A DNA stretch of 64,000 nt from positions 13,865,489 to 13,929,488 of the forward strand of contig CM037873.1 of NCBI GenBank assembly GCA_021292105.1, read 5' to 3'. The position numbers and the translations under genes are program-made. The notes below the pieces were generated by a model that worked only from the letters and a program-made list of their open reading frames with translations, was not told where the DNA came from and made no database searches. The DNA is from Anadara kagoshimensis (taxonomy: Eukaryota > Mollusca > Bivalvia > Arcoida > Arcidae). Below, piece after piece: positions 864 through 62,311 of the stretch (within the stretch, counting starts at the first letter, position 1; each line of letters opens with the position of its first letter).

Positions 864-911
<48 letters not shown>

Positions 912-2663: not shown

Positions 2664-2841
2664 ATTCAATATGTAACTTTCCGGCACAATGGAGTGGTAC
2701 TTGGTATGACAGTTCTAGATCTGCTACAATCTCTATAGCTACTGACCAAATCACGGGTTGGAGTGTGACGGCTTTTGTTGCCACAAGTACTGTGTGGGCG
2801 TGTAAATTTGAAGATCCTACAAATAATTATTATGTATTTGA
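2664..2841 (+). CDS. Gene A exon: first Cys-rich ectodomain module
   Basis: The acceptor is TATTTTCAG and the donor GTAAGT. The frame reads SICNFPAQWSGTWYDSS and ends at NYYVFE, entered with two bases of a split Asp codon. The C-x-FP-x2-W-x-G-x-W motif is the start of the module. The same frame stays open upstream through a hydrophobic stretch (TTG at 2615, ATG at 2648), but the strong acceptor and T-rich tract argue that this is intron. Confidence 0.85.
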
Positions 2842-5800: not shown

Positions 5801-6436
5801 GATTTTAATTTCAATTTTTTTAAACTCTGGCTTTAAGCATCAACTGTTGTTATACTCAGTAATTGTAATTATTACGGTAAGCACAACATCAAATTGTATC
5901 TGACCAAATAAATAACATAAGATGTATGTGATTTTTAGGACAACAAGCAGCTGTGAAACAGAATTGTCCAGAACCATTTCTTGGTACATTTTCTTATGTA
6001 TATAACGATGGATCATCTACAACTTGTGGAACACCTGAATGGGACGGATGTTCTGATAGACAAGCCATGACTTTTAATCTTGCTACATGTTCCACAAAGA
6101 TAGCATATTCAAGTAGGTTACGTTAAGTATTTAATCTAGAACATGAAGGTTAATTATAAGAAAAAACAAATAACATATAAAGTTTATATTCCCCTTTATT
6201 TTCAATTTTGATTACACACGTGGTGGGTTTAGTTAGCTCAAAAGGAGACGCTTACCCTTCCGAAGCACTTGGTCTCACTTTCCTTGGTGGAAGTTCTTTT
6301 GTATCATTTAATTTGCAAGTTTTCAAAGTTTTATTTTGTTTTTGGATTGTGATTTGGACATGGATTGGTATGTTTGTTTTTACTTTACTTTTGGATTGTT
6401 ATTTGGACATAGATTGGTATGTTTGTTTGTTACTTT

Positions 6437-6470
<34 letters not shown>

Positions 6471-8381: not shown

Positions 8382-8439
<58 letters not shown>

Positions 8440-31542: not shown

Positions 31543-31939
31543 TCACGTGTTATTATCGTCTGTCACAATGTCCGTTTCTTTTTTATTTTCACTAGTGATA
31601 TTTTCTTTATTTTCATCGTTAATGTTTGAAGTTGAATTATTGTTAGAGTTATCGTTTGAGCTTTGCTCGTTTTCGGTAGCGTTTTCTGAATTTCCTACTT
31701 GTCCCGGTATGTTTGTATTACCATTTTGTGGTATTTGAGATGACGTATTTGACGTCATAGACATCCTTCCGGAGTCTAAGTTAGTTTGTAGTCTAGATAA
31801 ACGTAATCCTAGTGCAGTGCTGGAGGGCGATGTGGTGGCAGTGGTTGTCGGCCTTCCCAAAACTCAGCACGGTCTAAAAGGTAATCTCGTCCATGTTCTG
31901 CTAGAAAACGTTCATCAATTTCTGTTTTTTCTTCATTAT
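31543..31939 (-). CDS. Gene B last exon, with an apparent one-base frame break
   Basis: The acceptor is TTATATTGTAG. The only frame consistent with the previous exon reads NEEKTEIDERFLAEHGRDYL then LDRAEFWEG and stops at TAG 31809-31811. From about 31860 a second frame is open to TGA 31543-31545, and reads like the same kind of protein (GRPTTTATTSPSSTALGLR, then Asn/Ser/Glu-rich, ending DIVTDDNNT). The switch lies at a GTTTTGGGAA run (plus-strand 31856-31862), and one extra T or G would join the frames. AATAAA follows the distal stop by a few bases. Confidence 0.7.
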
Positions 31940-34900
31940 CTACAATATAAACAGCAGACGTATTTAAAAATTATCAGTTCTGACAATAATATTTGATCAT
32001 TGACATTTCGAGTAACTAACCCTAGGAGGATCAATTCCAGCCCACTTTACCAAAAAATTGGTATGCTATTTGTAGAATATATGCAAAATTAACACCGCAA
32101 TAGTTATATTTTCAGTATGATATAACCTACCGAAACGCTGCATATAAAAAGTACAAATGCTTTAACGATATATGTATATGTTTAATATATTGTTTCCATG
32201 TGGGAAATTTACAAACATTTTGTAAACATGTAATCATCAATGACGGTGTTCAATTGCAATTTCAATCAAAGCACTTAATTGTAAAGTCATACTGCAGAAT
32301 CAAAAATACCACATTCGAATCGAAAATAACAAGTCATGCATTATCCTTGGGAAAACTGGTATGAATGAGTGTCTTTCTATTTCCAAAATTACTTTAAATT
32401 TCTTTTTATTATTAACAGTAGTATAGTGTTCTTGTTTCGCTGGTTGTTGCAGAGGTATATGTTTTTTTTAATTACAGTCTATTTCTTTTCAAGATATATA
32501 GGAGTATGTTTAAGCTTTAGCTGCATCTTCTAACCTTACCTATACAGTCGAACTTGCCTTAAAGGTCACCTCTATATAAGGGTCACCTGCTTATAAAGTA
32601 TAAATTGTATTCCAATTGATCTTTTTCATATTATTTGACCCTGTATATAAAGGTTACTTGCCCATAAAGGCCATTTTACTGGTTTTCTTGGGTGGTCTTT
32701 ATACACAGGTTTGTCTGTACTCACTATCGTAAACAGATTACTTACGTGTAGTTTCTACAACATGGTCAAAATATTTCTTGTCTCGATACAATTCCTCAAG
32801 AAGTTCTCTGAGTCTTCTGTCATCAATCTTTTCTCTACTAGCACCGGCTGATTTCGAAACGCCTATGTTTTGACTTCTTATCAGATCCGTACCAGTCAGC
32901 TCCCTATTAGAGCCATGGTGATGTATTAACGACCATGGAATAGTATGCCGTTTTTCGTGGTCATGTCGTAGAGAACTAATATCAAATGATTTTTGAGTTT
33001 CAAGACCTATACCTCCATTATTGAACCTAGGATGTTTTACTTTGGTGAAGAAAGCCTAAAAAGAAATGAAAAAATCATAATTAAATACTGTGCTGTCAAT
33101 CCTTTTTTATAAGTATAGGGAAACACCTTTCACCTGTCCGCTTGTCCTTTGATTTGATTAAAACATTAACATTTATTATGGTACATTTATCCAAATGGAA
33201 AACAAGCGTTTATTTCGTCTACATTAGGAAGGAAAGCAGTAATTTCAAACATGTATCTGTATTTAAAAAAGATATCCAAATATTAAGGAATAACAAGGTT
33301 AAGGAAAATACCAATTTAAAAGTAGGTGCTATAGGTGGAACTCAATGCATTGTGCATGATTTATCTGAATCCTAACACTACCAATGTATTAGTTGGATTC
33401 TCCTATATGAATATTTCTAATTAAAGGTCAAGCAGACATACCAATGCTTATAGAAATCCTTTATTTAGAAGCTTAGTTGCACAAAAATGTAAAAGGTAAT
33501 GCAAGGTAATATTTATAGAACTTAAGCCAACGGCAATAAATGAATGAGAGATGAACAAAAAAGATGATAAATTTCAAACGAAAAGAATGGGCGATATAAA
33601 ATTATGTTACTTAAATAGCTTAATATAAAACCCTCCAGCTAAATGGTTCTGGTTCTTAACAATGAAGCACATTGATTTTATTATGTCATTATGCAAGTTC
33701 TGACAACATAAAAAATGTACCACTTGTAAAGTGATTACAAAAAAATATAGCCTGATTGAACATACAGTTTTAAAATTACAAAGAAATAGTTATAAAGTTA
33801 TTAAAAGTTTATATAAACTGTCTTGTTGCTGATAATTCCGTCGAAATACAATTAACATTTAATTAAATCTTTATAATCAGTTTATTACTCACCATTTTTC
33901 AAGAATTATTCTTCTAGATAATATACTTCTGATTTATTTGACCTACCTCTTGTTGTTGACCTCCTTTACCAACCCAGAAAAACTCGTCTTCATCACCAAT
34001 ATCAACACTATCTCTCCTGCCACCATCCGGCTGCAAAAGAAGAATAGCTCATCAATTACTTTGGTTGTTTAATGACATTCCATGAGAGAAAATTGCCACT
34101 TAGACCACTCCAATCATAATGCAGAAAAACAACAAATAAAGCAAAATGTAAAGTCTATTATGAACACATGGCATTGCGAGTGTTTATTCATTTTTTTTTT
34201 ACATTTTCTTGAACACAAAGCGGTTGGTTTCACCGTTATCATTATTTTTGCATAAACCAATGTTGGGCTTCAAACCTATAGCAAAAAGCGATTTTTTACC
34301 TCAGGGTCCTTTTGTATATGGACGGTCAAATGTAGTGAAAATATGAACAGCATTAAGTTGATATATCTAAATTAAAATTATTGAAAATTTATATATAAAT
34401 TCATCAAAAAACACTAAAACCACGTAATTATTTAGATTTTTGTCTTATGCAAAGATTTTTTAAATACAAACATACTGATCAATGTCCAAATCACTATCCA
34501 AAAGCAAAGTAAAAACTTGCAAACTTGTAACTTGCAAATTAGTTTAAACACGTGACCTTTGACAGGGAGTGGTGTCAGGCGCAAGTATATAATAATCAAC
34601 ATTTACTGTGGTTATTCTTACCCCTATACTTTCATTTTCAAGCGAAATTTCCTCTATGATATTATCACTTTGACCCATGAATGCTTCTCTTGGAACAAAA
34701 GGTGCTTTTCCTCCTACAATAAAAATATCAAAACAAACATACCATTTTAAGTCCAATTCACAATTCCAAAACTAAAACATTTAAAACCAGCAAACTAAAT
34801 TTATCACGTGAACTTCTAGAAAGGAAGTGAGGTCAGGTGCTCCGGAAAGGCAAGTAAATCTTGTTAGCTAGTTCCATTATAATGAGACCATTATCGGCCT

Positions 34901-37900
34901 CATTAAATACATATCCTTAAACCCTGTTGCTAACAAACGACCAACAGAAAAAATACATATTTGCTCTCATTGTGTTCTGTTATAAGATGTCATCATAGTT
35001 AACCAAATATCCATTTGTTAAATGAAATATTTATTTATTTATATGATATGCTAGTTCTATGAAATTTAAAAATCTATATTTAAGAGCATTATTATTAAAA
35101 TTCTATTTATTAAGTTGAAAGGTATTCAGACATATTAATGTAAACTATTTATTATTATTAATAATACTATCTATTATAACAATAGAGTTGATGCATAAAT
35201 TTCTTTATAGTAAATGTGGTTGAATTGGTTTTCTCCTTTATGTTAAAAGAACTCACTTGTATCCGTTGTTTGAAGCTTTTCAAGTATATGTTTATCTCTG
35301 GCCAACCCCTCTCTATTTCTGGCTATCTGGTCTTGGTCCATTAGTTTGACTTGTTTGGAATAATTTGAAGTTGGTTGACCAGGTATTTGTTGGCCATCAA
35401 ATGCACTTGGTCTTCCATATACTTTAACTAAATCATTCAATTCTCTTGGATTGTCATTTGCTGATCCAACCTGTATTATGTGACCCTTTATAAATAGAAA
35501 GACATACAATATGCAATAAGCTGATGTTTTGGGAAATCTAGAGATCAAAAGCAAACATACTAATCCATGTCCGAATCATAATCCAGAAGCAAAGTAAAAA
35601 CTTTGGAACTGACAAGTTAGGTTATACACGTGAACTTCCACCAGGGAAGTGAGGCCGGGTGCTCCGGAAGGGTAAGCAGCTTCTGTTTAGCTAGCTACAT
35701 CCGCCATGTGTGTAATCAAAATTGTGTAAAAGGAACATAGAACTATAAGACGTCAAAATATCCAGAGCAATCCTGGACACAGAGACATCACACTTAGAGA
35801 CCAATTGCAGATTTCTAGCCTATTGAACAGAAGGCAACTTTTTTATTTAAAAACATTTTTATTTTAACTGACGAATTAGAAAAAACATCAATCAATCATC
35901 CAATCATATGGAAGATGACATCTTTTTCTTAAAATAAAGTGATTACAATCTAGAATGGCCGTATTTATATCATTCTCTTCAAACTGCTATTAAAGAACGT
36001 TCTGTGTAAACCAAAAACAAGCATACCAATAATGTCCATACCACAACCCAAAAGCAAAGTGCAAACTGTTATATTAGGTTAAACACGTGAACTTCCACCA
36101 GGAAAGTGAGATCCGGTGCTCCGGAAAAGCAAGTTTCTCGTGTTTAGCTAGTTTCATCCGTAAATCGATTATATTTCTCTGCATCTATTATATTGTCTAT
36201 ATTGTCAAGTTCATCTATTATTTGATATAAAAACAAACATTTAATAAAACTATACTCACCCCTTTTCCTTGTTTTCGTTTTTGCTTAAATAATCTTTTCT
36301 TTAATAGTTTTCTACATGCTGAAGAAACTGATCTTCGGTCCTACAAAATACACATATTAATTATCAATCCGTAATTATCACTCGAATTTCTTACATAAAT
36401 AAAAAACAAACATACCAATTTATGTTAAAAGCTCAACCCCAACGCTAAGTAAAAACTTTAAAACTGGCAAATTACGCTATGCACACTAGGGAAGTGAGGC
36501 CAGGTGCTCCGAAGGGTTAAGCACCAAAGAATATAATATAACATTAAGGTTTTATACTACAATGTTATTTTACATGAAAAGCAAGTAGCAGAAGTGATGA
36601 ACTATATTTAGTTCCTCAACTAACATCGTGTTTTTAAGACAACTGTTTCATCTTTCATAAATGTCATAAATCAAACACAAACAAACTGTAAAGTTAATTG
36701 TACTTTATGTCAAAGAAACAAAAATCGAAATTTAAAGATAATATTTAAAACCCCATGACAAACGGGTTGTAATCATCAAAAAGCAAACATACTAATCCCT
36801 GTCCAAATCACATTCTAAACCAATAGTACAAGACGTAAAATTCCACCACAGAAGGGAGACTGTGTGCTCTGAAAGAGTAAGTCATGATATTACCTTTGTG
36901 CCATTATCTTTAATGTCAACTCCAGGTAGAGGTAGCTCGTTATCGTCCATATCAAACATTACGCTTTTGCCCGATTTCCCACCACTATTTGTTGTCTGAA
37001 ATTAGATTGCAAAAATGATATTTCATTTTTAAATGGACTAGATTTAAATGTCTTTTTGAGAAGGTATTTTTATGAGTGGAATAACCATGTGATTCAACAT
37101 TTTTAAAGTTTGACTAAATATCTTGTATAAAACATAGAAAAATGAATTTAGAAAAATGTGATGTTTATCTGAAGGTTTACATGTTTTAAGTAAAAACATA
37201 TCATTCAATTCTGTATTTCTTGAAACAAAATAAACATACTAATCCAAGTCACAATCCCAAAAGAAGATAAAAACTGACAAATTATTTTAAACGCGCGGAC
37301 TTCTACAAGGGAAGTTAGGCCGGGTGTTCCGGAAGGGTAAACAAATTATGTTTAGGGTTACCATAAATATAGACAATGCTTTCATTTTCATATGAATACA
37401 GTGCCAATTGTGCGGAAATCGTCCTTGTATCACATTTCTTATGTTACATACATATTTAAAATTAATTATCTATCATCTATTTACCGCCAAATCAGTCATT
37501 ACGGGCAGACCATTTGAGTGTCTTCGATGCTTTAACACTGGACCGTCTTCATTTTCACCTAGTTTTTCGTCCACTTTTGGACCGTAATTGTCTTGAATAT
37601 ATCCCTTTATAAAGATGGTAAGAGAAATATAGTGTTATAAAAAGAGAAAATCCCGAAAGCCTTAGTGATTAAAATATGAAGCAGTTATATTAGATAACAG
37701 TACTAAGGTTACTTGTACTACGTATTAGTGAGATAATAATGTTCTAAGTAAAATTAATTTTGTTATACAGGTCTTTTTTCCATACATCCTGATCTATAAG
37801 TAAGTCCTTATTAAAAGTTTGCCCCTTATCTATTTTTTAGATTCTTCCTGGTGATTATTGTTCAGACATATATTTGAATCATTTTATGCAACGTCAGTTT

Positions 37901-40900
37901 AATTAAAATGATTATCAAGGTTTGTTTATTTTGCTAATATAATATAAAAAAGTTTTGTTTATCTTACAGAGAATTGTTTGTCTAAGAGACCAAAGATGCT
38001 TGAAAAACAGAAAAAAGAAAATAGGGGAGCAATATTAAATAATTGAGTTTTTACATTCAATTTTAGATTTATTAAATGCTGATACATTAGAATTCGTTAC
38101 AGATGCCATATGTTTTTTAATTATTAATTTAAAGCCTCGTTATATTGTTTTAAAAACAATATATGACAAAAGAAATCTAGATTAAATGTTAAAAAGTAGA
38201 AAGCATTTCAAGAAAATATAAATAGCCTTACCCCGACTGGACGACCTTTTTTACTTCTCTTTAATCTTGGTATATTAAACAATCTACCTAGACGAGCTTT
38301 CTTATATTCTCGTTCTGTTATATGGTCAGACACAACATGGCCATCAGATTCCCGCTGAAACGAATATTAAAGCAATAATAATAAAATTGAAAAATATAAA
38401 CTATGTAGATAATAATGTCAACTTTCCTTTTTTATGCAGCAATATACCTGCTTCTCCTGCTTATGATGTATTTGTTTCCCAATTGATACGCTATGGTAGA
38501 GCTTGTACCCACTACGGGAAACTTTGTACAAAGAAGTAGGCTGCTTGCAAATCAATTGTTGACTCATGGATATTGCAAGCCTAGGCTTATGAAAACCCTC
38601 AAAAAGTTTTATGGCCGTCATCACAGTATTTTTGACAAGTTTCATGTCTCTGTGTCCAGGATTGCCCTGGATATTTTTGACGTCTTATAGTAGTTCCATG
38701 TTCCTTTCACACAATTTTGATTACACACGTGGCGAGTGTAGCTAGCTAAACAGGAAGTGCTTACTTTTCCGGAGCACCCAGCCTCACTTCCCTGGTGGAA
38801 GTTCACGTGTATAACCTAACTTGTCAGTTCCAAAGTTTTTAGTTTGCTTCTGGATTGTGATTCGGATATGGATTTGTTTTTGATTTTGATACATAAAAAT
38901 ATATATTAAAATCACAGTAGCACACATAATAATCATGTCCAAATGACAGTCCAACACTTACAAATTTATGACCAAATCAAGGCCCTACACATATCAATTC
39001 ATTTCCAAACACGGTCTCAAAAACACCAATCCATGTCCAAATCACAGTCCAAAAGATACCAATCCAAAATAAAAACATACATGTAATCCCAAAAGTCAAA
39101 CACAAACACACATATCCATGTCAAAAACCAAAGTCAAACACTAACATACCTGGGAATGTCCAAATCACAATCCCAAAAGCAAAGTCAAAACGTTGAAGCT
39201 GGCAAATTACGTTAAACAAATGAACTTTCACAATTTTAGTCCAAGCACTACCGATGAGGAATTTTATTCGGGAACTATTGTTGCAAACCTAAAGCAGGTT
39301 TGGTAATATTTACTTACAATAATTCTTCCTTCCGAGTCTCTTATCAGGCCTGGTGGTAATTCAAACATGTCATCATCACTGTCACTGTACATGTTCTCAA
39401 GATCGTCTGTAGAGACGTCTTCATCGTCAGTTACTCCTACAATTCCCTTATTAGCGTTTTGTTTAGGGTCCTTTTTAGGATCCGGACTTTCTCCACCTGT
39501 TTCCATCCCACTATCTTTTCCATTCTCTCGTTTTTTATCATCCTCGGGCAAGTCGGGGATATCGCTTAAACCTGTCTTTTCTTTCTGATCTAAAGTAAGC
39601 CCTTGTTTAGCAGTTGCATCTTTACCATCTTTAAGATCTTTTTCACCATCTCCTGCTTTTCCATCAGTTTTACCTTTTTGTTCTTTCTGTTTGTCGTCTG
39701 TTTGTTCCTTCCCTTTAGTTTGATCATCAACGGTATCAGCTGGAGGAACATTGTTTTCCGTGTGTTGCTCATCATTAAAATCCTATCGAGACAAATTCAA
39801 GATAAAAATATTACATAAATAACACTGTCAACTCATTTATTTAAGAAAAAAAAACATTGAAACAGAGATCAACCTAAAGAATTTTCACAAAAGTATTCAA
39901 TTTCAACTATATCGAGATTTTGTTCTTAAATCCCAAACAATTGCAATGTTTCTACCATATATTCATCACATAAACACATCAACCCGACACGTTGACATTT
40001 CATATACCTGGCTGGAAGTGTTCAGTTAGGAATATATTTCACCATTATTGTTCTAAAGTTTCCTTTATGCAAATGTCCTCTTAAGAATTACATTCGTTGT
40101 TTATCTACCAACTTCTTGTTTTGAAAAATAAAAATATATAATTTAATTTGCAATTCTGAACAATTACTTTAAGATTTTACTACCTTATAACAATACTAGT
40201 AATAAACCAGTATAACACCTGAACAATACAGAACTATTTGTTTTATCACAAATCAATCTCTTTTAAATAATTGCATGTCGTATGTGAAATACATTTCAAT
40301 TAAACATGAATCTGTGAGACATGTGCTTTTGAAAAAAAAAACTTACAAAATCGTCGTCATATTTGAAATCCTCTTTTCGTCTGACCAATAATGTTGTTCA
40401 TCTAATTTCTTTTCTATGTTCTTCTTGTGTTCATACTGAATCATAAATTCTGCTCTTATACCACCTTCACGTCTTCGTTTTTCCTCATCCTGACTGTCAG
40501 CACTAGAGTCCCTTTTTTCTCCGAATTTCTTTGATTTTCCTTTTGCAAAGAGTTTCATAATGCCTCCTTTTTCTTTTTAGACCGTGATTTGTTTCTGTTT
40601 TTCTCTTCCATGTCTCTTGTTACTAAGACATTAGTCAGTTGTCCTTTAGGCTGTAAGATATCATGAAATGGATGTTGGAGAAAAACATTTTATTGATTGA
40701 CAATCAGTACGGCCATACCGTGTTACATTGGAATCGACGGGACAACAGCTTTATTTTTAAATTAACCAAACTTTATTATAAAACACCAAACTTGAAGTCC
40801 ATCATACATTTGTCTGCAAATCTTAGTTTATGTTTATATAGAATTTTAACTTCTAATGTATTAATTTCACCGGGTAAAAAATGTATGGCGGCAAGAACAG

Positions 40901-46053: not shown

Positions 46054-46123
<70 letters not shown>

Positions 46124-52100: not shown

Positions 52101-52279
52101 TCCCACTACCACCACCCCTTTTCCACACTTGTTTTAAATGATTAAATGAACTGTATGACATCCATCTGAACTTTCAAGTTAATTTTTATATTATTAGTTT
52201 TAAAATGAATAGTTAGTCAGTTTCATCATTGTGTAATGCGCATTAAAGGTGCAACCGAACACAAGAATCTTGTCACTAG

Positions 52280-52311
<32 letters not shown>

Positions 52312-55300
52312 GATTATTTTAGACGGATTTGTTCCGTAAAGCCGATAAACGGACGAATAGAATAAAAAGTCAAATGAGACAAAAAAATTTCCCATTAAAA
52401 CCAATTTAAAATAAAAATGTACTGAACATCATGCTATAAAAATATACAAAAAAGATAATCTTGTGTGTCAAAAATTAGTTCTCTCTCTCTCCCTCTGTCT
52501 CTCTCTCTTGGCCATGTCCCTTGGTTTAAAAAGGTAAATTAGATGAATTCACGTATGATTAATGAAATCACTCTTCATGGAAGTCTCTTAATTAGTATTA
52601 CTAATTAACGTTTCTTTCACGCCTCGGCGATCAGGTATATAACATTATCACCTAAGACTGGTCAGTACTACCTGGATTCTTTCATGCTTCAGCGAACTGG
52701 TAAATTACATCATCACCTGATTGCAATTTCCTACCTGTGTACAGGGATTAATTAATCAGTATCACTAATCAGCTAATTAACTGGTCATTACGGTGGTTGA
52801 TTGACAATTAGCTGTGAGAGAGAGGGGGAAAAGTCGGGGCAACTGGGGGGGGGGGGGGGGGACGGGCCCCCTGTGCCCCCCCCCCGCTGGATCCGCCACT
52901 GAGCACAACGCATAGGCAAAATTCCTGTACTATCGCCTATAGCTGGCGATGTCTGGATATAAGTGAAATATTCTTGACTGGGGTGTTAAACACTATTACT
53001 CAATTAATTACTCACCCAATCAAAATTATATAACATCTACAGACAGAATTAACATTCTAATTGTAAAATAAGACAATAAAGATTTATTATCTATCTTACT
53101 TTTATTTTACCGACAGTGAAAAAAACTTTTTGCGGAATCAATGTAGCGTCTGATTACGAATATTGGATAATTGAAACATTTTAATTATGATTTGCGACCA
53201 TATCATCCGTGTTTGAAGTATTTAAACACAACTTTGTAATAACGTCATGTTACGTCAGCACATAACGTCACTCTAACGAAGCCGGATATTTTGCATTTAA
53301 CAAGAAGTAGAAAACTACTGACATATACAGTCTGGGTACTCAGCTATCCTCTATAACTCTAGAAATGGCTGTTTCTATATAAGTATGTGTAAGAATATTG
53401 ACAATGGTGTAAAACACCACGAGTCCACTTGGCTTTAAGTTTTTATTTACTTTTGTCTGAATCATAAAATATATCATTTTGATCTTAGATCCGAAAGACT
53501 TTTTACCATTGCTTCAATCTTATGATCAATATGACTTTAATTTACCGGGTAATGAAACAAAAGGTCCGGGATGAAAGAATTCTCAGACATGTTTTAAAAT
53601 TTGAACTGACATAAGCATAGTTATTGAACTTGATTTAATTTCGCGAAAACTGCGTCTTGACATACATGTACTTAAAAGACAGCAATCATTTTTTCAAAGA
53701 GTAATATAGTTGTCATGTGCTTTTGACTTTTTTATGAAAAAAAATGCTTCATAAAAAATTCAAAAGTAGAACATGAAAATTGCAAGAACATTTAGATTGC
53801 TTTATGTCATAAAAATTCAAAAGTAGCACACGGCATATTGCAAAAACATTAAGATTGCTTGTGAGCAGCACATGGTGCAATGTGTTTTATATGTTTAAAT
53901 TTTATTTCAAAACGGCATTAAATAGAACTTCCTTGCTAATGCAAGGGTAAAATTGCTTGTTGTTGTTATGCAACGGGATAAACATTATGACAGAAGTTGA
54001 CATTCGACAAGCTATTTCAATATCTACAAAACGTTGTTTAAGTAGGATATTTTCACCAAGCCTACTATTGAAATCATAAGAATTTGGAATGAAAGACTTT
54101 TAGAATTCACGTTTATTCAGTTTGAGCGTACATTTTGTATACATACTTTCTGAGGGCAGTATTGAAAATCAATAACGGACTTTTAAATATATATAGATTT
54201 AATGTATTTCAATGGAATATCTATGTCACATAAAATAAAACACGTATGTGTATATGTGTAGAAAGTAGTTGTTTGTCCACGTGTGTTCGTATGTGTGTAT
54301 GTACACAGTACATATTGTAATCAATGGTCACTGAAACAGCAAATATTGTTATAGCATCAAAGAACTGGCTACAAGAACTCTGCCGGGGGGGGGGGGTATT
54401 TGTCATAGTTCTCATGACTTCAGGACCTTTCCCTTTTTTTCATTTTGTTGTTTTCATGTTTGAAGTAATATAATCAAAATGTCCTTCTTCTTGACATTAA
54501 AATTAAAATAAAAGATTTTGAAACACAATGGATATTCATAGCTTATGGTCTTTGGTTGTTGTTGCTTAAGCAACAAAGAACCTTAGCTAAGCTTTTGTTC
54601 AAAACAAAAAGTACTACATAGCTACTTTAGCAATAATATTGCAAAGCAGTGTTTTTCAAAAATTTCAGAGGTTTAAAGTTGTTAACTAGCCTCACCCCCT
54701 CCCCAACAGCCCCCCCCCCTCCCCGTGTTCTTGGAGCCTGTATCAGCTGAAATAAAATCAACAAGAAATCTTGATCTGAAATGAAAAAGAAAGGGGGGAA
54801 ATATTAAATGAATCAGATATACATGTATGTATATTGAATCTCAATTGTTAATAGTCCTATATGAACAATATATATTAATCCACCATGTTGCTAACCAAAA
54901 TCATACAATACCTCTTTCCGTGTATCAGTCCGCGTTGTATCCTCTCCTGTTTTACTTTTAATTTCCGGATCACTCTCTTCGTTGGACATCCTAAATCATC
55001 ATAATTGACCATTTTTTATTTTACACAATTATTGTTTTCTTAATGTCCATAAATCTGGCCATTGTCGATCGACCTTTTTAAGTTCCAGTTATCAATATAT
55101 ACATACTTGTGACGTAGACATAACCATAAGAAAATCAAGTCTGTTATATTCAAATATATCCTTTATTATCATAACTGCTTACTGAGATTCAATTACTTGT
55201 GAAAAGCTCGCCTTAGTAATACACAGGTACATCGTTGTATATAACGGGGTAGTGTATTGGTTTTAATTACTTTTCCTTTATTTGAACTGTAAATAGGTTT

Positions 55301-58300: not shown

Positions 58301-61300
58301 TTATAGAACAGACCACCACCGGAGTATGTCTAACCACCAGGTGGAAAGCTGCAAAGTTTATATTTCTCTGATTAATGTATTTACTTGTAATACCAATGTA
58401 AAGAATAATATTGATAATATTGCCGTGTGATCCATACATGCAATATGTGGAAAATGGGAAATTTATCTTAAATTGTCAGTTGTCCGGCTACAATGTTTTC
58501 TGACATGTCAGCATAACTTTTTTAAACAGCTAAGTTTTTGAATAATGGGATTATTCCATTTTCGTTGTTTTTGTTGAAATTCTGTCCACGAGTTTACATG
58601 TCAATGAAATATATATTACAAATTCAACTTAAACAGAAACAACAACCCACTAATTCACCACCCAACAAAAAGAACCACGAAAATTGAACACCACGAAAAT
58701 AAATCATTTCACAGTATGTCTGTTTTTTTATCGGCACAGAATTCCACATACACAAAACGTGTGGTTAAACAATAAGATATATGAAATAAATACATGTTGT
58801 ACATCAAAGCACCAAACTTACAAAAAAATCATGTCATCAGCGGCACCCGGAACAACCGACTTCGAAATTAATTGTGAATTACATAAATGTATTAAACAGT
58901 TGCACAGAGACAAAAATCAGTTAGACCTACTACATTTAGTTATTTTTAGACATATTAGATGTTTTATATTCTACAGTTTTATTTACATATAATATAGTAT
59001 CTGGTTAATATTCTATATGAATATAAATCTGGTGCACATTACATTACAAAGAGACTGTGGTTCTATATGTTACGGCACTTAAAAAATAATAAGTGAATGT
59101 GAATTATATTACAGTATGAACATGTTTACGATAAAACATATATAAGATGACCGTGATAAGATTTTAAAAAAGGTTTAACCGGTTTCTCAATAAATATAAA
59201 AAGATAAATATTAAAATCTTTAGATAAGGAAATTATTATTAAATTTAAATGCATTAATTCGAGAATATTATAAGCCATGTATTGATATTTTCTAGCATTT
59301 ATATACTACAAAAGCAGTCATATTTTATCTATCAGTATTCTAGCACACACAGAATCAAGCTTAGCGACAATCCAAACTTTACTTGTCTAAGAATACTCTA
59401 ATGACTAATTCTATGTTTTCTTGAAAATTAACATTTTTTTAAAAAAAGTATTCATACAAAATTCAAAATATAAATTGCGTATTACTTATATCGTTATTTG
59501 TTCGACTAAAATATTTGACCTCATCTTAAAAATTAAAATATTTGGATTTCAACAATTTTGGTTCGACCATTACTGATGAGGGATTTCATATCGAAACGAC
59601 CGAAATCATTACAGGTTTAGAAATAACTTTAAAGTAATAATTTCCTTGTAATAAGTAAAATAACACAAAAACTCACGTTTTCTTCATCATCTTTGTCATT
59701 ATTCTCCTCCTCATCACCTGCTAACACACCTGCCGGTACAGGTGATACATCCTCCGTACCGCCGTTAAAACCCGAATCTATGGACTTTTTATCTTCTTCT
59801 TGTTCTATATACTTCTTTGATGTAGATGGTCTTGATTTTCCTTTTTCCTCATCCTCCTCGTTTTCCTTGTCACTACCTTTTCCCTCGTCCTCTTCGTCAT
59901 CTTTTTCATCAGCTATTGGGGCTTCCTCGTCACTGACTTTACGTTTTCTTCTTATACAACAACAGATAATTATGATTATTAGGATTATTAGTAAGATTAC
60001 GATGAGCACTATAACGATATAGATCCACTCTACACTTGCGGCAGCCACAGCGGCGGTGGTTGTTACGGCGGCGGTGGTAGATGTAGATACAGTGGTTGTT
60101 GAGGTGGTGGTTGTGGCACAAATTGGATCCGCTAGATAAAAATAAAATAAGTACAAATGTATATATAGGTTTTGGTTTTTCTTTAATGTCCTAAATAAAA
60201 CCCCTTCTTTAAACGTGCATTGGGATGTATGCCCAGTCGTGTGGTTATATAACACTGCTGGAGAATTCGAACTCTCAACCACCCCGCTTTTTAAAGTCAT
60301 TTTTTAAATTCTGGTGTTTCTTGGATATCAGTGTTTCCCAACAGATGGTATACATAACTTGTATAAATATATGATACACAGCGCATTTTCCGGTATACTG
60401 TCTTTCTATTATCTAGGTCGAGTGTGGCTGCTATTCAGAAAGCACCACGTGTATATGTTATACTGTAAACGATAAACCACCTCACAACTATATTTTGGCA
60501 TTTTAACAAAGAATTTTACTAAATGGACTACAGACCACATTGTGTTTCACCCATGGTTTTGTGATGTTGCAATAGTGCGAGTGATATGATATTTTTAATA
60601 TGTTCAATTTATAAATAATTAAAAGAACAACAAAAACAACATTAAGAATGGTACCCATTAAAAGTTCCATTGGCCCCAAATTGTCGATTATAATTGTGGA
60701 AAGATGTAAATATTTAGTTTTAAATATACATGAAAACCAGACATTAAACGGCAATAACAATAATAGTCCAGTTTTACATTTAGGTAGTCTTTGGTCTATG
60801 TTGGTAAGTTTATAAAGGGGACTTAGTGGTCTAAAACGTCGACTTCCGGATCACATACAGCGCCACTTAACCCCTAGTGGACAAATCCTAGGGTGATGCA
60901 ATTTGTCAAAGGTCTAGGCAATCTAATCTAAAGTAATGTTTCTTTTGTTTCAGCAAATATGTACATATAAAAGTTTTAATTGCATATCATGGAAGTTTTA
61001 GTTGCTATATTCCTTCTTTTTTAATCTCATAATCATAGTCTAATGCTAAATTGCAAGTGGAACTATTTCCGACACAAATGTATATAGAATTAAATAAAAC
61101 ACTTACCACATGTAGCTACAACAGAAAAACATAATATTGATTAGACATTTTATTAAACAATACATTTGTCCAAAAAGTAATTGTAAAACTTATCAAACAC
61201 GAACATACCGGTCAATGTCTAAACAAAAATCCCCAAAGGCAGCAAAAACTTTGAAAACTGGCAATTAAGTTAAACACGTTACCTCCCACCAGGAAAGTGA

Positions 61301-61440
61301 GACCAGGTATCCTGGAAGTCTAAGCACCAACTCACGGTTTAGCTAGCTACATCCAACAACACAAATAAAAATTGAGGAGGATAGAAACGTGGAATTCAAT
61401 CTCAAGAAAAAACATTTTATTTCAAACCAACATAACATGT

Positions 61441-61488
<48 letters not shown>

Positions 61489-62199
61489 GCACGACAAAAC
61501 CGTTAAGCGGTTTTGATCACCAAATACCAATGGTATGTATAACTCATATAAATTACTGAATACTTACACGTTCCTAGATTTGTCAATGTTATATTAGCTC
61601 CAGATGATCCAGTGACGTAGGTGCTTGTTTGTGCCGACGTACTCAGACATACTGTAGGGTTAACACTCAGAGCTATCTGAGTTCCTGCTAAATTCGTAGT
61701 TACAGCAAACAACTACAAAGGAAACAAAAGCAACAAAGTGTTCAATGAAAATTTAAAATGGTATCAAAACTAAAGTATTTAAATCGTATAAGAATAATGT
61801 TGTGACTTAAATTGTTTATTCCGACAATAACAGAAATTTAAACGATATTGCCCAATACACAAGAAGCAAATTTTCTCTAAGAAGCTAACACGCTGGTTAG
61901 GGTTGATTTTGTTTTTTATCTTCAAACCTTTCTAATAAATATTAACTTATAGTTCACAAAAAATTGATTGTTCAAAGCAGCGACATTTAGTATTAAATGT
62001 CGCTGTTCAAAGTTATTCTAATTATTTATTTAATTTAACAAGGAGAAGTAGCTTGATTTATTATTTACCATGCAGATGAATGTATAATACGTAGTCCCGT
62101 CCGGTGTCACGGAGTCGTTGTTGTATAAGAATGTCGTGTAGGTGGTTGTATTTCCGCTTACACTGGAACTGGAGAAGATCAGAGATAGTGATCCATTCA
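31543..62199 (-). CDS. Gene B: membrane protein paralogous to gene A with a giant charged cytoplasmic tail; 5' end off window
   Basis: Four exons (62069-62199, 61568-61712, 61107-61115, 59677-60131) encode the last ectodomain part, a 9-nt microexon, stalk, helix and acidic juxtamembrane tail. They are followed by 22 exons from 47423 down to 31543. All have GT-AG borders and compatible phases when the exon at 54912-54989 is skipped. The tail is about 1,000 residues: first about 240 residues of Glu/Asp/Lys-rich modules on phase-0 exons, then mixed-charge sequence with basic clusters (PRLKRSKKGRP, KKRLFKQKRKQGKG) and a Ser/Asn-rich end. I recognise no known domain in the tail. Joining the membrane half to the tail is inferred from phase and composition. 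They could instead be two genes, the second starting at 54989. Three homopolymer frame breaks are noted in the exon entries. Confidence 0.65.
32543..32722. repeat. Dispersed element, relative of 4478-4692
   Basis: TCGAACTTGCCTTAAAGGTC, ACCTCTATATAAGGGTCACC and TGCTTATAAAG match the other copy in inverse. The right end GGTGGTCTTTATACACAGGT mirrors its left end. It lies in a gene B intron. Confidence 0.45.
32746..33055 (-). CDS. Gene B tail exon (103 codons)
   Basis: The acceptor is TTCTTTTTTAG and the donor GTAAGT. The frame starts AFFTKVKHPRFNNGGIGLET and includes HHHGSNRELTGTDLIRSQN and a likely helix EKIDDRRLRELLEELYRDKK. It is phase 0 in and phase 1 out; the leftover C plus AT of the next exon makes a His codon. 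No family recognised. Confidence 0.85.
33114..33452. repeat. MITE family 3 copy, about 340 bp, diverged ends
   Basis: The left end TATAGGGAAACACCTTTCAC (CTGTCCGCTTGTCCTTT) and the reverse complement of the right end (TATAAGCATTGGTATGTCTG, CTTGACCTTTAATT) correspond to the ends of the 24396 copy. Confidence 0.6.
33947..34030 (-). CDS. Gene B tail exon (28 codons)
   Basis: The acceptor is CTTTTGCAG and the donor GTAGGT. The frame is PDGGRRDSVDIGDEDEFFWV followed by GKGGQQQE, phase 0 at both ends. Confidence 0.85.
34468..34585 (+). repeat. Dispersed repeat family 1 copy, 3' truncated
   Basis: ATCAATGTCCAAATCACTAT, CAAAAGCAAAGTAAAAACTT and TTTAAACACGTGACCTTTGA match the family. The GGGAGTGGTGTCAGGC end replaces GGGAAGTGAGGCCGGG, and the remainder is lost next to the exon at 34622. 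Confidence 0.7.
34622..34713 (-). CDS. Gene B tail exon (about 31 codons)
   Basis: The acceptor is TTTATTGTAG and the donor GTAAGA. Two bases complete an Arg codon, then GKAPFVPREAFMGQSDNIIE and EISLENESIG, leaving phase 0. Confidence 0.8.
34733..34882 (+). repeat. Dispersed repeat family 1 copy
   Basis: AGTCCAATTCACAATTCCAA, CACGTGAACTTCTAGAAAGG, AAGTGAGGTCAGGTGCTCCG and GTTAGCTAG are in family order. It abuts the 5' border of the exon at 34622-34713, about 20 bases from it. Confidence 0.75.
35257..35470 (-). CDS. Gene B tail exon (71 codons)
   Basis: The acceptor is TAATACAG and the donor GTGAGT. The frame starts VGSANDNPRELNDLVKVYGR and ends ILEKLQTTDT with one base left over. It contains polar helix-forming sequence but no recognised domain. 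Confidence 0.85.
35553..35790 (+). repeat. Dispersed repeat family 1, reference copy
   Basis: Ordered boxes: CTAATCCATGTCCGAATCAT, AGCAAAGTAAAAACTTTGGA, ACTGACAAGTTAGGTTATAC, ACGTGAACTTCCACCAGGGA, AGTGAGGCCGGGTGCTCCGG, AAGGGTAAGCAGCTTCTGTT, TAGCTAGCTACATCCGCCAT, GTGTGTAATCAAAATTG and GGACACAGAGACATCAC. Neither tRNA-like promoter boxes nor inverted ends are obvious, so SINE versus MITE is undecided. At least 16 copies or fragments occur in the window, most in gene B introns. Confidence 0.85.
36018..36160 (+). repeat. Dispersed repeat family 1 copy
   Basis: AATGTCCATACCACAACCCA, AACACGTGAACTTCCACCAG, GAAAGTGAGATCCGGTGCTC and GTTTAGCTAG are shared with the reference copy. The middle AACTTTG box is shortened. 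Confidence 0.75.
36260..36340 (-). CDS. Gene B tail exon (27 codons), strongly basic
   Basis: The acceptor is ATTTTGTAG and the donor GTGAGT. The frame DRRSVSSACRKLLKKRLFKQ ends KRKQGKG, phase 0 both ends. Twelve of 27 residues are Lys or Arg, and the cluster would satisfy simple nuclear-localisation patterns, which is suggestive only. Confidence 0.85.
36408..36525 (+). repeat. Dispersed repeat family 1 copy, internal deletion
   Basis: CATACCAATTTATGTTAAAA, AACTGGCAAATTACG and GGGAAGTGAGGCCAGGTGCT with TCCGAAGGGTTAAGCACC are present. The ACGTGAACTTCCACC box is missing. Confidence 0.7.
36783..36885 (+). repeat. Dispersed repeat family 1 copy, shortened
   Basis: CATACTAATCCCTGTCCAAA, TCACATTCTAAACC, TTCCACCACAGAAGGGAGAC and TGTGCTCTGAAAGAGTAAG follow family order. 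It stops about 10 bases short of the donor of the exon at 36894. Confidence 0.65.
36894..36995 (-). CDS. Gene B tail exon (34 codons)
   Basis: The acceptor is AATTTCAG and the donor GTAATA. The frame TTNSGGKSGKSVMFDMDDNE continues LPLPGVDIKDNGTK, phase 0 both ends. Confidence 0.85.
37230..37345 (+). repeat. Dispersed repeat family 1 copy
   Basis: CATACTAATCCAAGTCACAA, AACTGACAAATTATTTTAAA, GCGGACTTCTACAAGGGAAG and TTAGGCCGGGTGTTCCGGAA with GGGTAA are recognisable. Confidence 0.75.
37485..37604 (-). CDS. Gene B tail exon (40 codons)
   Basis: The acceptor is CTTTATAAAG, weaker than its neighbours, and the donor GTAAAT. The frame GYIQDNYGPKVDEKLGENED continues GPVLKHRRHSNGLPVMTDLA, phase 0 both ends. 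Confidence 0.82.
38232..38354 (-). CDS. Gene B tail exon (41 codons), basic C-terminal half
   Basis: The acceptor is TTCGTTTCAG and the donor GTAAGG. The frame RESDGHVVSDHITEREYKKA continues RLGRLFNIPRLKRSKKGRPV and G, phase 0 both ends. PRLKRSKKGRP is a compact basic cluster. Confidence 0.85.
38640..38890 (-). repeat. Dispersed repeat family 1, long reverse copy
   Basis: The plus strand reads TGTGTCCAGGATTGCCCTGG, GATTACACACGTGGCGAGTG, GCACCCAGCCTCACTTCCCT, GGTGGAAGTTCACGTGTATA and GATTGTGATTCGGATATGGA, the exact reverse order of the reference copy. Fragments of its end sequence are repeated to about 39150. Confidence 0.85.
39146..39240 (+). repeat. Dispersed repeat family 1, 5' fragment
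   Basis: CCTGGGAATGTCCAAATCAC, AATCCCAAAAGCAAAGTCAA and GCTGGCAAATTACGTTAAAC match; the rest is absent. The exon at 39318 starts shortly after. Confidence 0.7.
39318..39782 (-). CDS. Gene B tail exon (155 codons), the largest
   Basis: The acceptor is GTCTCGATAG and the donor GTAAGT. The frame opens DFNDEQHTENNVPPADTVDD, has a Lys/Asp/Gly-rich centre (GKTDGKAGDGEKDLKDGKDA), and ends with an acidic run DDLENMYSDSDDDMFELPPG then LIRDSEGRII. It is phase 0 at both ends. It is predicted to be disordered by composition, with several SD and TD casein-kinase-2-like sites. Confidence 0.9.
40347..40650 (-). CDS. Gene B tail exon carrying two apparent one-base deletions
   Basis: The acceptor is ATCTTACAG and the donor GTAAGT. 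The exon is 304 nt, one short of 305 and two short of 306, where phase 0 to phase 0 needs a multiple of three. Frame 1 reads PKGQLTNVLVTRDMEEKNRN then KSRSKKKK and stops. A second frame from the A5GA5 run (40568-40578) reads MKLFAKGKSKKFGEKRDSSA through EHKKNIEKKLDEQHYWSDE. At an A4 run (40374-40377) a third frame gives EDFKYDDDF, in phase with the next exon. One extra A at each run restores a single frame. Confidence 0.75.
41046..41138 (-). CDS. Gene B tail exon (31 codons)
   Basis: The acceptor is ATATTTATAG and the donor GTAAGT. The frame KQRENGESDDDEVDEDGNPI ends RIGMKKRKKFE, phase 0 both ends. It marks the change from the purely acidic modules to mixed-charge sequence. Confidence 0.85.
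41560..41628 (-). CDS. Gene B acidic mini-exon (23 codons)
   Basis: The acceptor is TTTCTGCAG and the donor GTACAC. The frame KEEEKEEEKDKTEDDEEEEN ends EKK, phase 0 both ends; 14 of 23 residues are Glu or Asp. Confidence 0.82.
42706..42750 (-). CDS. Gene B mini-exon (15 or 16 codons) with tandem acceptor
   Basis: The frame is EQQPSCIPVDEKQSR, phase 0 both ends, donor GTAAAA. The 3' splice site reads TTTTAGCAG, a NAGNAG acceptor. Use of the upstream AG would add CAG, one Gln, at 42751-42753. This exon is the least charged of the series. Confidence 0.75.
42857..42919 (-). CDS. Gene B acidic mini-exon (21 codons)
   Basis: The acceptor is TTATCAAG and the donor GTATGT. The frame EKKEEPPKEEKEEEKTDEEV ends K, phase 0 both ends. 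Pro-Pro amid Glu/Lys recalls titin PEVK-type modules in composition only. Confidence 0.82.
43213..43311 (-). CDS. Gene B acidic exon (33 codons)
   Basis: The acceptor is TTTCATTAG and the donor GTAGTT. The frame DENEQNEQENTEEDTKSVVI continues LTKEAEETIDNTE, phase 0 both ends. Confidence 0.85.
43588..43626 (-). CDS. Gene B acidic mini-exon (13 codons)
   Basis: The acceptor is GTATTTCAG and the donor GTACAT. The frame is KSDTEDEEEKEEK, phase 0 both ends. At 39 nt it is the shortest module of the tail. Confidence 0.8.
43943..43999 (-). CDS. Gene B acidic mini-exon (19 codons)
   Basis: The acceptor is ATTTATTAG and the donor GTAAAT. The frame is SHVEEEEQTEEKHDDADDE, phase 0 both ends. Confidence 0.82.
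44468..44560 (-). CDS. Gene B acidic exon (31 codons)
   Basis: The acceptor is TTACAATAG and the donor GTGATG. The frame EEPKVIAIEKGGESTDEEEE continues NEEEDEEKEDK, phase 0 both ends. Confidence 0.83.
45094..45150 (-). CDS. Gene B acidic mini-exon, duplicate of 45930-45986
   Basis: The acceptor is ATATTTACAG and the donor GTACGT. The frame ILNEDDKDGNETVVTDDEE aligns without gaps to TLNKDENDEEEPVVKEEEE of the next exon upstream. Both are 57 nt and phase 0, and even the acceptor sequences are identical. A local exon duplication is the likely origin. Confidence 0.85.
45590..45812 (+). repeat. Dispersed repeat family 1, long copy
   Basis: AACTGACAAATTAAGTTAAA, GTGAACTTCTACAAGGGAAG, TGAGGTAGGGTGCTCCGGAA, CACTCGCCACGTATGTAACT, GGAACATGGAACTATCGGAT and GAGAGACATCACAG cover nearly the full family. 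It lies between the duplicated exons. A reverse terminal fragment precedes it at about 45515-45560. Confidence 0.8.
45930..45986 (-). CDS. Gene B acidic mini-exon (19 codons), duplicate of 45094-45150
   Basis: The acceptor is ATATTTACAG and the donor GTATGT. The frame is TLNKDENDEEEPVVKEEEE, phase 0 both ends. Confidence 0.85.
46058..46121. repeat. TA dinucleotide microsatellite
   Basis: About 30 uninterrupted TA units in a gene B intron. Likely polymorphic in length. Confidence 0.95.
46541..47091. repeat. MITE family 3, longer copy (about 550 bp)
   Basis: The left end TATAGGCAAACAACATTGAC (CTGTCCGATTGACCTT) is nearly identical to the 24396 copy. The right end is a diverged inverse (GGATCAATGTTACTGCCGAT). 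The interior is longer than in other copies and unrelated by eye. It directly abuts the next element. Confidence 0.65.
47100..47364. repeat. MITE family 4: about 265 bp with inverted ends of about 55 bp
   Basis: The left end GGCCCCAGTTTCACAATTAC with CTAAGATTTTCCTTAACTTA is mirrored by TTTAAGTTATTGGAAATCTT with GATTGTTAAACCGGGACC at the right. The right end stops about 15 bases from the donor of the exon at 47379. Partial copies are at 1-116 and about 26094. Confidence 0.75.
47379..47423 (-). CDS. Gene B acidic mini-exon (15 codons), junction of the two possible 5' parts
   Basis: The acceptor is TCTCTGCAG and the donor GTATTA. The frame is EITKFIAEEPEREDE, phase 0 both ends. It can be entered in frame from the membrane exon (ends at 59677 in phase 0) or from the ATG exon (ends at 54912 in phase 0). 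Confidence 0.82.
47560..47770. promoter_or_regulatory. CpG-containing island with a CRE palindrome, possible internal promoter
   Basis: In otherwise AT-rich intron, this stretch has many CpGs, a perfect TGACGTCA (47654-47661), a second TGACGTTC nearby, GCCGCCATCGCGG and GTGGGCGTGG. It lies 140-350 bp upstream, in gene B's direction, of the exon at 47379-47423. Promoter activity is inference; no TATA box or initiator can be assigned. A plus-strand open frame (to 47721) runs through it but lacks coding character. Confidence 0.35.
47771..51039. other. Gene B intron, little recognised
   Basis: No exon found on either strand. Around 50220-50330 is GGAGGAAACCGGAGTGCCTG with flanking sequence, a motif I associate with invertebrate repeats. 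A family 1 terminal fragment (GATTGTGATTTGGGCATGGA) is at about 48474-48500. Confidence 0.45.
51040..51161 (+). repeat. SINE, left part, interrupted by a DNA transposon
   Basis: CTCGGCATTACGAATTGAAA, TCACGGTAGGCGTAGCACGA and TAAAGAACCCTGTTGCTTAT match the body of the complete SINE at 51795-52080 in opposite orientation. The right part resumes at 52902. The tRNA-like head is not visible, so the copy is 5' truncated. Confidence 0.75.
51162..52901. mobile_element. 1.74-kb non-autonomous DNA transposon inserted in a SINE
   Basis: The ends CAGGGGCGGATCCAGAGTC and, inverted, CAGTGGCGGATCCAGCGGGG form short terminal inverted repeats of the CAG-GGCGGATCCAG type, known to me from hAT-like elements. 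AGCAC directly flanks both ends (51157-51161, 52902-52906), a 5-bp direct repeat rather than the 8 bp typical of hAT. G/C homopolymers lie inside both ends. No transposase frame is present. It carries a second SINE and a run of A (52279-52308). Confidence 0.75.
51795..52080 (-). repeat. tRNA-derived SINE, complete-looking, inside the transposon
   Basis: The reverse complement starts with a tRNA-like head (GTCAGTTGGTAGCGAAGTGC, then GAGGGTTTGGTCTC) and passes through CACGGTAGGCGTGGCACTAT and AAAGAACCCACACTGCATAA. It ends with GTGACGTCTCGATATAAGTG and AAACATTTTTGAC. The short minus-strand frame within it is not a gene. Confidence 0.8.
52902..52990 (+). repeat. SINE, right part after the transposon
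   Basis: CGCCTATAGCTGGCGATGTC and TGGATATAAGTGAAATATTC continue the SINE begun at 51040, matching CACCTATAGCTGGTGACGTC of the intact copy. It ends near GGGGTGTTAAAC. A similar tail occurs alone at about 53320-53430. Confidence 0.75.
53431..54911. other. Gene B intron, no exon seen
   Basis: Contains a CATGTGC/TTCAAAAGTAGCACA inverted-repeat relative at 53710-53850 and G and C homopolymers at about 54384 and 54711. No coding segment was found. Confidence 0.5.
54912..54989 (-). CDS. Candidate alternative first coding exon of gene B (26 codons, starts ATG)
   Basis: After a potential acceptor ATGATTTAG|G the frame begins ATG and reads MSNEESDPEIKSKTGEDTTR, then TDTRKE, with donor GTATTG in phase 0. 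Spliced from the membrane exon (phase 0) it would be read one base off and stop after DVQRRE. It therefore fits best as a first coding exon of a soluble form, or of a separate gene, joining the exon at 47423. Its 5' UTR and promoter were not located. An unseen linking exon cannot be excluded. Confidence 0.65.
55386..55600. repeat. MITE family 2 copy
   Basis: The left end TAATACGGACCTGTCGAAAA and right end TTAAATTTTCGACAGGTTTG (TACTG) are inverted. The interior shares the CAGCTCTCAAGCCACTTGCT-like and CTCGGTAGCCGAGCTT boxes. Confidence 0.75.
55601..57084. other. Gene B intron or 5' flank of the soluble form, nothing recognised
   Basis: Short inverted motifs GCGAAAGCGAATTTTCGCAA occur near 56060. 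No exon-like segment is supported; the plus-strand frame at 56217-56537 has no splice or homology support. Confidence 0.4.
57085..57250 (-). repeat. Dispersed repeat family 1, reverse copy
   Basis: The plus strand reads GTTACCACACATGGCTGGTG, TAGCTAAACAAGAGGTAGCC, TTCCGTAGCACCCGGGTTCA and CTTTCCTGATGGAAGCTCAG, the reverse of the family order. Confidence 0.75.
57251..59676. other. Gene B intron, nothing recognised
   Basis: Around 57870-58170, four loosely similar blocks of GCTGAAAGAAAAACAT / CATTTGTCATCAAATTTAAA form a degenerate tandem repeat. No exon-like segment was found that could link the membrane exon to the ATG exon. Confidence 0.45.
59677..60131 (-). CDS. Gene B exon: Thr-rich stalk, membrane helix, acidic juxtamembrane tail
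   Basis: The acceptor is TTTTATCTAG and the donor GTGAGT. After DPICATTTTSTTTVSTSTT come an Ala-rich lead, the helix WIYIVIVLIVILLIILIIII, cysteines CCC (possible palmitoylation) and basic IRRKRK. Then about 80 residues rich in Asp, Glu and Lys run to DKDDEEN. It is the counterpart of gene A's exon 8833-9066 but with a far longer and more acidic cytoplasmic part. Exit phase is 0. If the donor is not used, the frame ends at a stop at 59629-59631. Confidence 0.9.
61107..61115 (-). CDS. Gene B 9-nt microexon (CTACATGTG)
   Basis: Nine bases lie between GTTGTAG and GTAAGT on the minus strand. They complete a Ser codon, encode Thr and Cys, and begin an Ala codon, giving NLGTSTCADPIC. Position, length, phase and seven of nine bases match the gene A microexon. 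Skipping it keeps the frame. Confidence 0.82.
61197..61400 (+). repeat. Dispersed repeat family 1 copy
   Basis: AACTGGCAATTAAGTTAAAC, ACCAGGAAAGTGAGACCAGG, TTAGCTAGCTACATCCAACA and AATTGAGGAGGATAG are in family order. It lies in the intron just upstream of the gene B microexon. Confidence 0.75.
61446..61488. repeat. TC dinucleotide microsatellite
   Basis: About 21 TC units, GA on gene B's sense strand, between the microexon and the preceding exon. Confidence 0.95.
61568..61712 (-). CDS. Gene B ectodomain exon, homologous to gene A 7801-7918
   Basis: The acceptor is CCTTTGTAG and the donor GTAAGT. The frame LFAVTTNLAGTQIALSVNPT ends GSSGANITLTNLGT with one leftover base. It has an NIT glycosylation sequon. 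Phase 0 in and 1 out equals gene A. Confidence 0.88.
62069..62199 (-). CDS. Gene B ectodomain exon, homologous to gene A 7101-7225
   Basis: The acceptor is TTATCCTTACAG and the donor GTAAAT. After two bases the frame reads NGSLSLIFSSSSVSGNTTTY and ends DGTTYYTFICM, with three or more N-glycosylation sequons. Earlier ectodomain exons should lie upstream, beyond 64000 or unrecognised in 62200-64000. Confidence 0.87.
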
Positions 62200-62311
62200 C
62201 TGTAAGGATAAAAGATACACGAAAATTACAATGATTAAAAACTATTTAATATCCCCAAGACAATTAACATAGATATCCTCAATGTTTGACATCCGCTCTA
62301 AAGGTCATAGT

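Follow-up and report, generated by a model that had tools for sequence, protein, structure and literature searches.

Acidic phase-0 mini-exons beside a receptor-like gene of Anadara kagoshimensis most likely form a separate neighboring gene

A receptor-like gene on the minus strand of contig C17 of Anadara kagoshimensis is followed by a run of very small exons that encode mostly acidic sequence. The question raised by this locus is whether these exons form the cytoplasmic tail of the receptor, as a sequence-only reading had proposed, or a gene of their own. We analyzed the whole 64,000-nucleotide stretch that contains them (C17:13865489-13929488, hereafter the window) and searched an assembly of 1.115 Gb in 36 contigs. 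The most likely model, which the sequence leads us to prefer with modest confidence, comprises two neighboring minus-strand genes, the receptor-like gene (gene B) and then a separate gene for an acidic protein. The alternative, an array that serves as the tail of the receptor itself, has not been established, and for the main product it is probably incorrect.

Two further copies of the locus on the same contig provided the basis for comparison. Copy 2 (L009-L012 and L029-L034) is inverted and lies about 0.5 Mb away at C17:13322414-13406740; its match to the window spans at least positions -3924 to 83997, that is, at least 88 kb. The identity is mostly 94-96% in long blocks and lower at repeats, and it reaches 97-99% at the end that carries gene A, a relative of the receptor, except for two blocks near 91%. 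Copy 2 would be either a large segmental duplication or the second haplotype, assembled in inverted orientation. It has counterparts of all 11 mini-exons and of the 11 exons that follow them. Copy 3 (L013-L015, C17:13176-13201 kb) is partial and has the same orientation as the window. It holds the end of the receptor, the candidate first exon described below (START), and the first mini-exon, and its similarity ends at window position 46071; its transmembrane exon is damaged, with the stretch carrying the donor missing. No match to the mini-exons m2-m11 or to the downstream exons was found in 30 kb of the copy 3 region, and a filter that finds eight acidic stretches in the array found none in the next 24.3 kb, which contain a weak m1-like tblastn match (E 0.018). 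Zero-mismatch 100-base intervals between the window and copy 2 were discarded as an exon detector, as too many arise by chance at 2.6% divergence.

The array itself lies on the minus strand between 47423 and 41046 and consists of 11 mini-exons of 13-33 codons, most of them rich in glutamate, aspartate, and lysine:

47379-47423, minus strand: m1, identical in copies 2 and 3
45930-45986, minus strand: m2, tandem duplicate of m3
45094-45150, minus strand: m3, tandem duplicate of m2
44468-44560, minus strand: m4, with a counterpart in copy 2
43943-43999, minus strand: m5, with a counterpart in copy 2
43588-43626, minus strand: m6, with a counterpart in copy 2
43213-43311, minus strand: m7, found at two places in the genome
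42857-42919, minus strand: m8, with an additional in-frame donor lying 6 bases further upstream (42862-42857)
42706-42750, minus strand: m9, with a tandem TAG/CAG acceptor (42753-42750) that gives one codon more or less
41560-41628, minus strand: m10, with a counterpart in copy 2
41046-41138, minus strand: m11, with the basic cluster KKRKKFE at its end

From m1 to m11, the exons have 15, 19, 19, 31, 19, 13, 33, 21, 15, 23, and 31 codons (717 bases in total), and the introns between them measure 106-1392 bases. All 11 have lengths divisible by three, read open, begin and end in phase 0, and are flanked by AG and GT, so the borders bear out the earlier claim of 11 consecutive phase-0 exons of 13-33 codons. 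We scanned the whole minus strand of the window for phase-0 units of the form AG-[open, at least 45% Glu/Asp/Lys]-GT and obtained 10 clusters, all in the array region, and none on the plus strand; the splice-site weights were crude ones taken from general animal splice-site knowledge. The less charged ninth mini-exon (42750-42706) is absent from these 10. In 200 dinucleotide shuffles of the region, the mean was 0.025 clusters and the maximum was one. Comparison with copy 2 showed 8 differing sites among 717 in the mini-exons, with one indel of three bases, as against 252 of 5381 sites and 42 indels in the introns between them, about 20 bases on the acceptor side and about 10 on the donor side being left out (Fisher p = 6e-7 for the substitutions). 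Thus, the array has been maintained as protein-coding sequence; it is real and under constraint. With a scan far above chance and exons less diverged than introns, the modular, in-frame, charged design that had been read from the letters also stood.

Over a stretch of 74 bases that includes both splice sites, m2 and m3 agree at 74%, and by this likeness they are a tandem exon duplication. The array would have grown at least partly by such duplication, as seen for this pair. Because each mini-exon is a multiple of three, skipping would change only the length and charge of the polyanion. The double donor of m8 and the tandem acceptor of m9 could each alter the protein by one or two residues, and they may be taken as a hint of differential exon inclusion. 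We saw no retrocopy that would reveal the splice pattern, because m7 and one downstream exon (GHII...) each matched only two places in the genome. Purine-rich exons can also act as splicing enhancers. The (GAR)n stretches of the array would thus provide Glu/Lys codons and a purine-rich splicing enhancer at once, by which such small exons could be recognized.

The mini-exon gene is unusual yet close in kind to known genes. The PEVK exons of titin are many, small, and in phase, in an array far larger than 11. The present array resembles them in its consecutive small phase-0 exons (11 of 11) and in its charged and disordered product, but it is built of Glu/Asp/Lys instead of Pro-Glu-Val-Lys and has 11 exons. 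In titin, the exons of this region are reported to encode a charged, disordered spring (PMC7274174). The likeness is one of design and homology is not claimed; titin was not among the Pfam families matched at E up to 1. Searches of open PubMed Central papers returned nothing on topic for phase-0 mini-exons with Mytilus and none for glutamic-acid-rich small exons in bivalves.

The array is followed by 11 further exons:

40347-40650, minus strand: exon interrupted in the window by two frame breaks of a single base each; 309 bases and open in copy 2
39318-39782, minus strand: 155-codon charged exon, 15 of 465 sites differing from copy 2
38232-38354, minus strand: exon RESD..., from the sequence and the comparison with copy 2
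37485-37604, minus strand: exon GYIQ..., from reading of the sequence
36894-36995, minus strand: exon TTNS..., from the sequence and the comparison with copy 2
36260-36340, minus strand: exon DRRS..., basic, from the sequence and the comparison with copy 2
35257-35485, minus strand: exon GHII..., ending in phase 1, from the sequence, with two genomic matches
34622-34713, minus strand: exon with GKAPFVPR..., from the sequence and the comparison with copy 2
33947-34030, minus strand: exon PDGG..., from the sequence and the comparison with copy 2
32746-33055, minus strand: exon AFFT..., ending in phase 1, from the sequence and the comparison with copy 2
31543-31939, minus strand: last exon, broken once in frame in the window copy; copy 2 reads through in a single frame to ...DDNNT

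It had been claimed that phase-0 exons of 38-155 codons follow the array. Exons do follow and are mostly in phase 0, but with the broken exon (40650-40347) and the last one left out they range over 27-155 codons, and the introns after 35257 and 32746 are in phase 1. For the proposed acidic gene as a whole, 20 of 22 introns are in phase 0, as counted by reading, with copy 2 standing in for the broken exon. That exon has 304 bases and two frame breaks in the window and in this form cannot both begin and end in phase 0, whereas its counterpart in copy 2 is open and in phase at both ends. The 155-codon exon is conserved more loosely against copy 2 than the mini-exons are.

Three frame breaks thus affect the window copy, two in exon 40650-40347 and one in the last exon, and by itself this copy does not show an intact gene. 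Such breaks would be expected if the window copy were a pseudogene in a decaying locus, as would the truncation of copy 3 and the damage to its transmembrane exon. Against decay, copy 2 is open at all three points, and each of the three breaks amounts to a length difference of one base. Copy 2 for its part has a one-base difference in an exon of gene B whose window version reads open. Patterns of this kind are typical of errors in long-read assembly or of allelic noise. We consider decay very improbable; the breaks look like assembly or allelic noise.

If the array is to be the tail of the receptor, gene B has to be joined to it. The visible 3' part of gene B comprises the following exons:

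62069-62199, minus strand: ectodomain exon, from reading of the sequence
61568-61712, minus strand: ectodomain exon, from reading of the sequence
61107-61115, minus strand: 9-base micro-exon, identified by eye
59677-60131, minus strand: exon with the transmembrane segment and about 92 acidic cytoplasmic residues, its phase-0 donor kept in copy 2

Gene B would thus encode a single-pass membrane protein whose tail, under the two-gene model, would end in or soon after the acidic segment of about 92 residues. In the comparison with copy 2, the acidic part of the tail has synonymous differences only; a 9-base insertion and several changes lie directly behind the membrane segment. An acidic, conserved tail that ends at a conserved phase-0 donor is what a fusion needs, and this speaks against the two-gene model. 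In the interval from 59.6 to 55.2 kb, we found neither a terminal exon nor a 3' end of gene B that is convincing. Behind the strong acceptors at 57891 and 57748, the frame runs for just 10 and 5 residues before a stop, and AATAAA follows, a signal that is cheap in AT-rich DNA; reading past the donor gives 15 further residues and then a stop. The lack of a clear terminal exon is the best remaining argument for a fusion. The Pfam matches of the transmembrane exon (RIFIN, TMEM154, SID-1, DAG1, and others), all below the curated cut-offs among the best 25 of 37 and the best 25 of 54, look like transmembrane plus low-complexity matches and were rejected.

The relatives of the receptor offer a further comparison. 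Gene A lies on the plus strand, with exons read from 2663 to 12685, and ends in its own short last exon (12548-12685, EDTNAQ...NPANH); our reading agrees with the tail of about 70 residues given for it before. A second relative, L005 (C17:13442719), has a membrane exon that ends in a short basic phase-1 tail, and the tails of both are short and not strongly acidic. In the 40 kb around L005, the mini-exon peptides gave no tblastn match at E up to 0.1, and the one 20-residue charged stretch that passes the filter on that strand is apparently its basic tail. A brief look at L006 on C7 covered 20 kb without a mini-exon match. The absence of an array near gene A and L005 counts in favor of separate genes for the receptor and the acidic exons.

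The sequence-only reading had also called the receptor a DUF704x-type membrane protein. This holds for gene A, whose DUF7042 match scores 42.2 bits with a cut-off of 27, but gene B stays below every DUF704x cut-off: in our tentative, partial model of it, the best match is DUF7043 with 13.6 bits against a cut-off of 27 in one of two queries, and the other query gave none. Gene B seems to be laid out as gene A is. By eye, the two seem to share the exon order and a 9-base micro-exon before the transmembrane exon (61115-61107 on the minus strand in gene B, 8368-8376 on the plus strand in gene A), although tblastn between their exons gave weak matches, the best with E 1.5 when the window was extended. 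Gene B may thus resemble the DUF7042/7043/7044 proteins in layout, but it reaches none of their cut-offs, and neither gene A nor L005 shows an acidic array. A search of open PubMed Central papers gave none that names DUF7042-7045.

The gap that separates the array from the last visible receptor exon contains a candidate first exon that fits a separate gene:

54912-54989, minus strand: candidate START exon, MSNEESDPEIKSKTGEDTTRTDTRKE, ending in phase 0; the only acidic ATG-initial candidate in the 47.5-59.6 kb gap
54990-55220, minus strand: putative promoter or 5' leader block, proposed from its low divergence from copy 3

In the two-gene model, the acidic gene would begin near 55.1 kb, with 54989-54912 as its first coding exon. 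START has 26 codons, of which 42% are Glu, Asp, or Lys, and its end phase fits m1. The START filter applied to the shuffled gap gave a mean of 0.04 candidates, with at least one in 2 of 100 shuffles, figures that are only a guide because the filter was set after START had been seen; elsewhere in the window the filter picked out one more place, inside exon 36995-36894. START is open in all three copies compared, with a 3-base in-frame insertion and two substitutions (one replacement) in copy 2 and a single, synonymous substitution in copy 3. An array above chance and under constraint, preceded by an open, in-phase START, suggests a gene with its own beginning. What stands against this is that the differences in START are few, that its filter was post hoc, and that an ATG in good context lies upstream near 55011 in another frame. 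The transcript must therefore begin below this ATG or bypass it; by our reading of the alignment, the rival frame that it opens meets a stop in copy 2.

The region around START is also set apart by its low divergence. The block 54905-55220 differs from copy 3 by four substitutions and no indels, and among 532 intervals of 300 bases compared with copy 3, the 12 lowest all lie in 54807-55226, the lowest having 4 events per 300 bases against a median of 14. Against copy 2, the block has three substitutions and one indel in 316 bases, which is below the median of 10 events per 300 bases and not among the lowest intervals listed; those fall in 61842-62241, a region that includes an ectodomain exon of gene B, with one at 53742-54041. 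Because copy 3 has START and m1 but no further array was found there, the low divergence does not come from the whole acidic protein. Mosaic divergence or gene conversion may account for it in copy 3. A scan for bacterial promoters and terminators was set aside as not meaningful for an animal genome.

These observations bear on the possibility of a single gene, in which the receptor exon would be spliced over 12.25 kb (59677 to 47423) to m1, giving a cytoplasmic tail of about 1,000 residues and leaving START unused. The strong, in-phase acceptor of m1 fits this, as do the synonymous-only acidic part of the receptor exon, its conserved phase-0 donor, and the missing terminal exon. The existence and conservation of START, the two relatives without an array, and C-terminal Lys/Arg clusters that look more like those of a soluble nuclear or nucleic-acid-binding protein argue against it. 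So does the length of the join compared with the 0.1-1.4 kb introns of the array. As proof of separate genes, intron length is weakened because the first intron of the two-gene model, from START to m1, would itself measure 7.5 kb; the upstream introns of gene B are roughly 3 kb in our tentative model. We regard a single gene as quite improbable. The earlier proposal that the array is the receptor's tail draws indirect support from the acidic receptor exon with its conserved phase-0 donor, while the in-phase START, the 12.25-kb join, and the array-less relatives count against it.

A locus with two promoters would combine both arrangements: an upstream promoter would give the receptor with or without the long tail, and a promoter at 55.1 kb would yield this tail by itself, in soluble form. 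As such a locus would require, both START and the receptor donor are conserved and present phase 0 to m1. The AbetaH-J-J proteins (aspartyl beta-hydroxylase, junctin, junctate, and humbug) and triadin have highly charged low-complexity arms, located in the lumen. A precedent exists in the mammalian AbetaH-J-J locus, where two promoters and alternative splicing are described as yielding functionally distinct proteins (PMC2625362). The charged arms, and the two-promoter design if it applied here, would be the likeness, again one of design and not claimed as homology, but the arm would be cytoplasmic or soluble here instead of lumenal. Pfam, searched at E up to 1, gave no match that would indicate homology to triadin or ASPH, although for sequence of low complexity this test is weak. 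Two promoters would still need the 12.25-kb splice that skips START, and we judge this arrangement rather unlikely. A further form of it, in which the receptor can take up through splicing a cytoplasmic polyelectrolyte tail of about 1,000 residues, with a length set exon by exon, and an internal promoter frees the same tail as a soluble protein that could compete with it, is in our view unlikely.

In the favored two-gene model, the acidic gene would encode about 1,030 residues, the sum over exons as read in copy 2, and its product is best modeled as soluble and for the most part disordered. The array peptide (239 residues), which would form a strongly acidic N-terminal block, has 48% Asp+Glu, a net charge of -77, and a pI of about 4.1. 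The C-terminal part, with 535 residues counted after leaving out the broken exon and the last exon, is 19% acidic and 17% basic, with acidic stretches interspersed with several Lys/Arg clusters. By the Uversky charge-hydropathy criterion, the receptor tail, START, the array, and this C-terminal part, with the same two exons left out, all plot as disordered (4 of 4). Pfam at E up to 1 gave no family for the array query (270 amino acids) or the C-terminal piece (649 amino acids), a weak test for low-complexity sequence; the C-terminal piece had no match among PDB sequences at E up to 10, and relatives of the C-terminal part sought in viral contigs gave two pattern matches, none of them confirmed. 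In our reading, the predicted protein combines a flexible polyanion with an arm of mixed charge and would act electrostatically. Its role would likely be to bind basic partners or cations, or to provide spacing, and the Lys/Arg clusters would permit nuclear or polyanion binding.

Exons that are small, symmetric, and rich in purines offer a means of building a disordered charged protein and of tuning it. With a compact constrained locus, the m2/m3 duplication, and two diverged full copies in one genome, the growth of such an array can therefore be studied directly. If the receptor fusion were true, it would mean a receptor with a splice-tuned tether; if false, the locus cautions against joining neighboring acidic genes on composition alone.

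A tandem array with a 27-base unit occupies window positions 901-2409 (46.5 copies in 1148-2409), directly before the first exon read in gene A. Further tandem repeat arrays lie among the upstream exons of gene B, at 64392-66940 in window numbering (past the window end, L026) and at C17:13338069-13341465, and these give many internal matches between the two copies.
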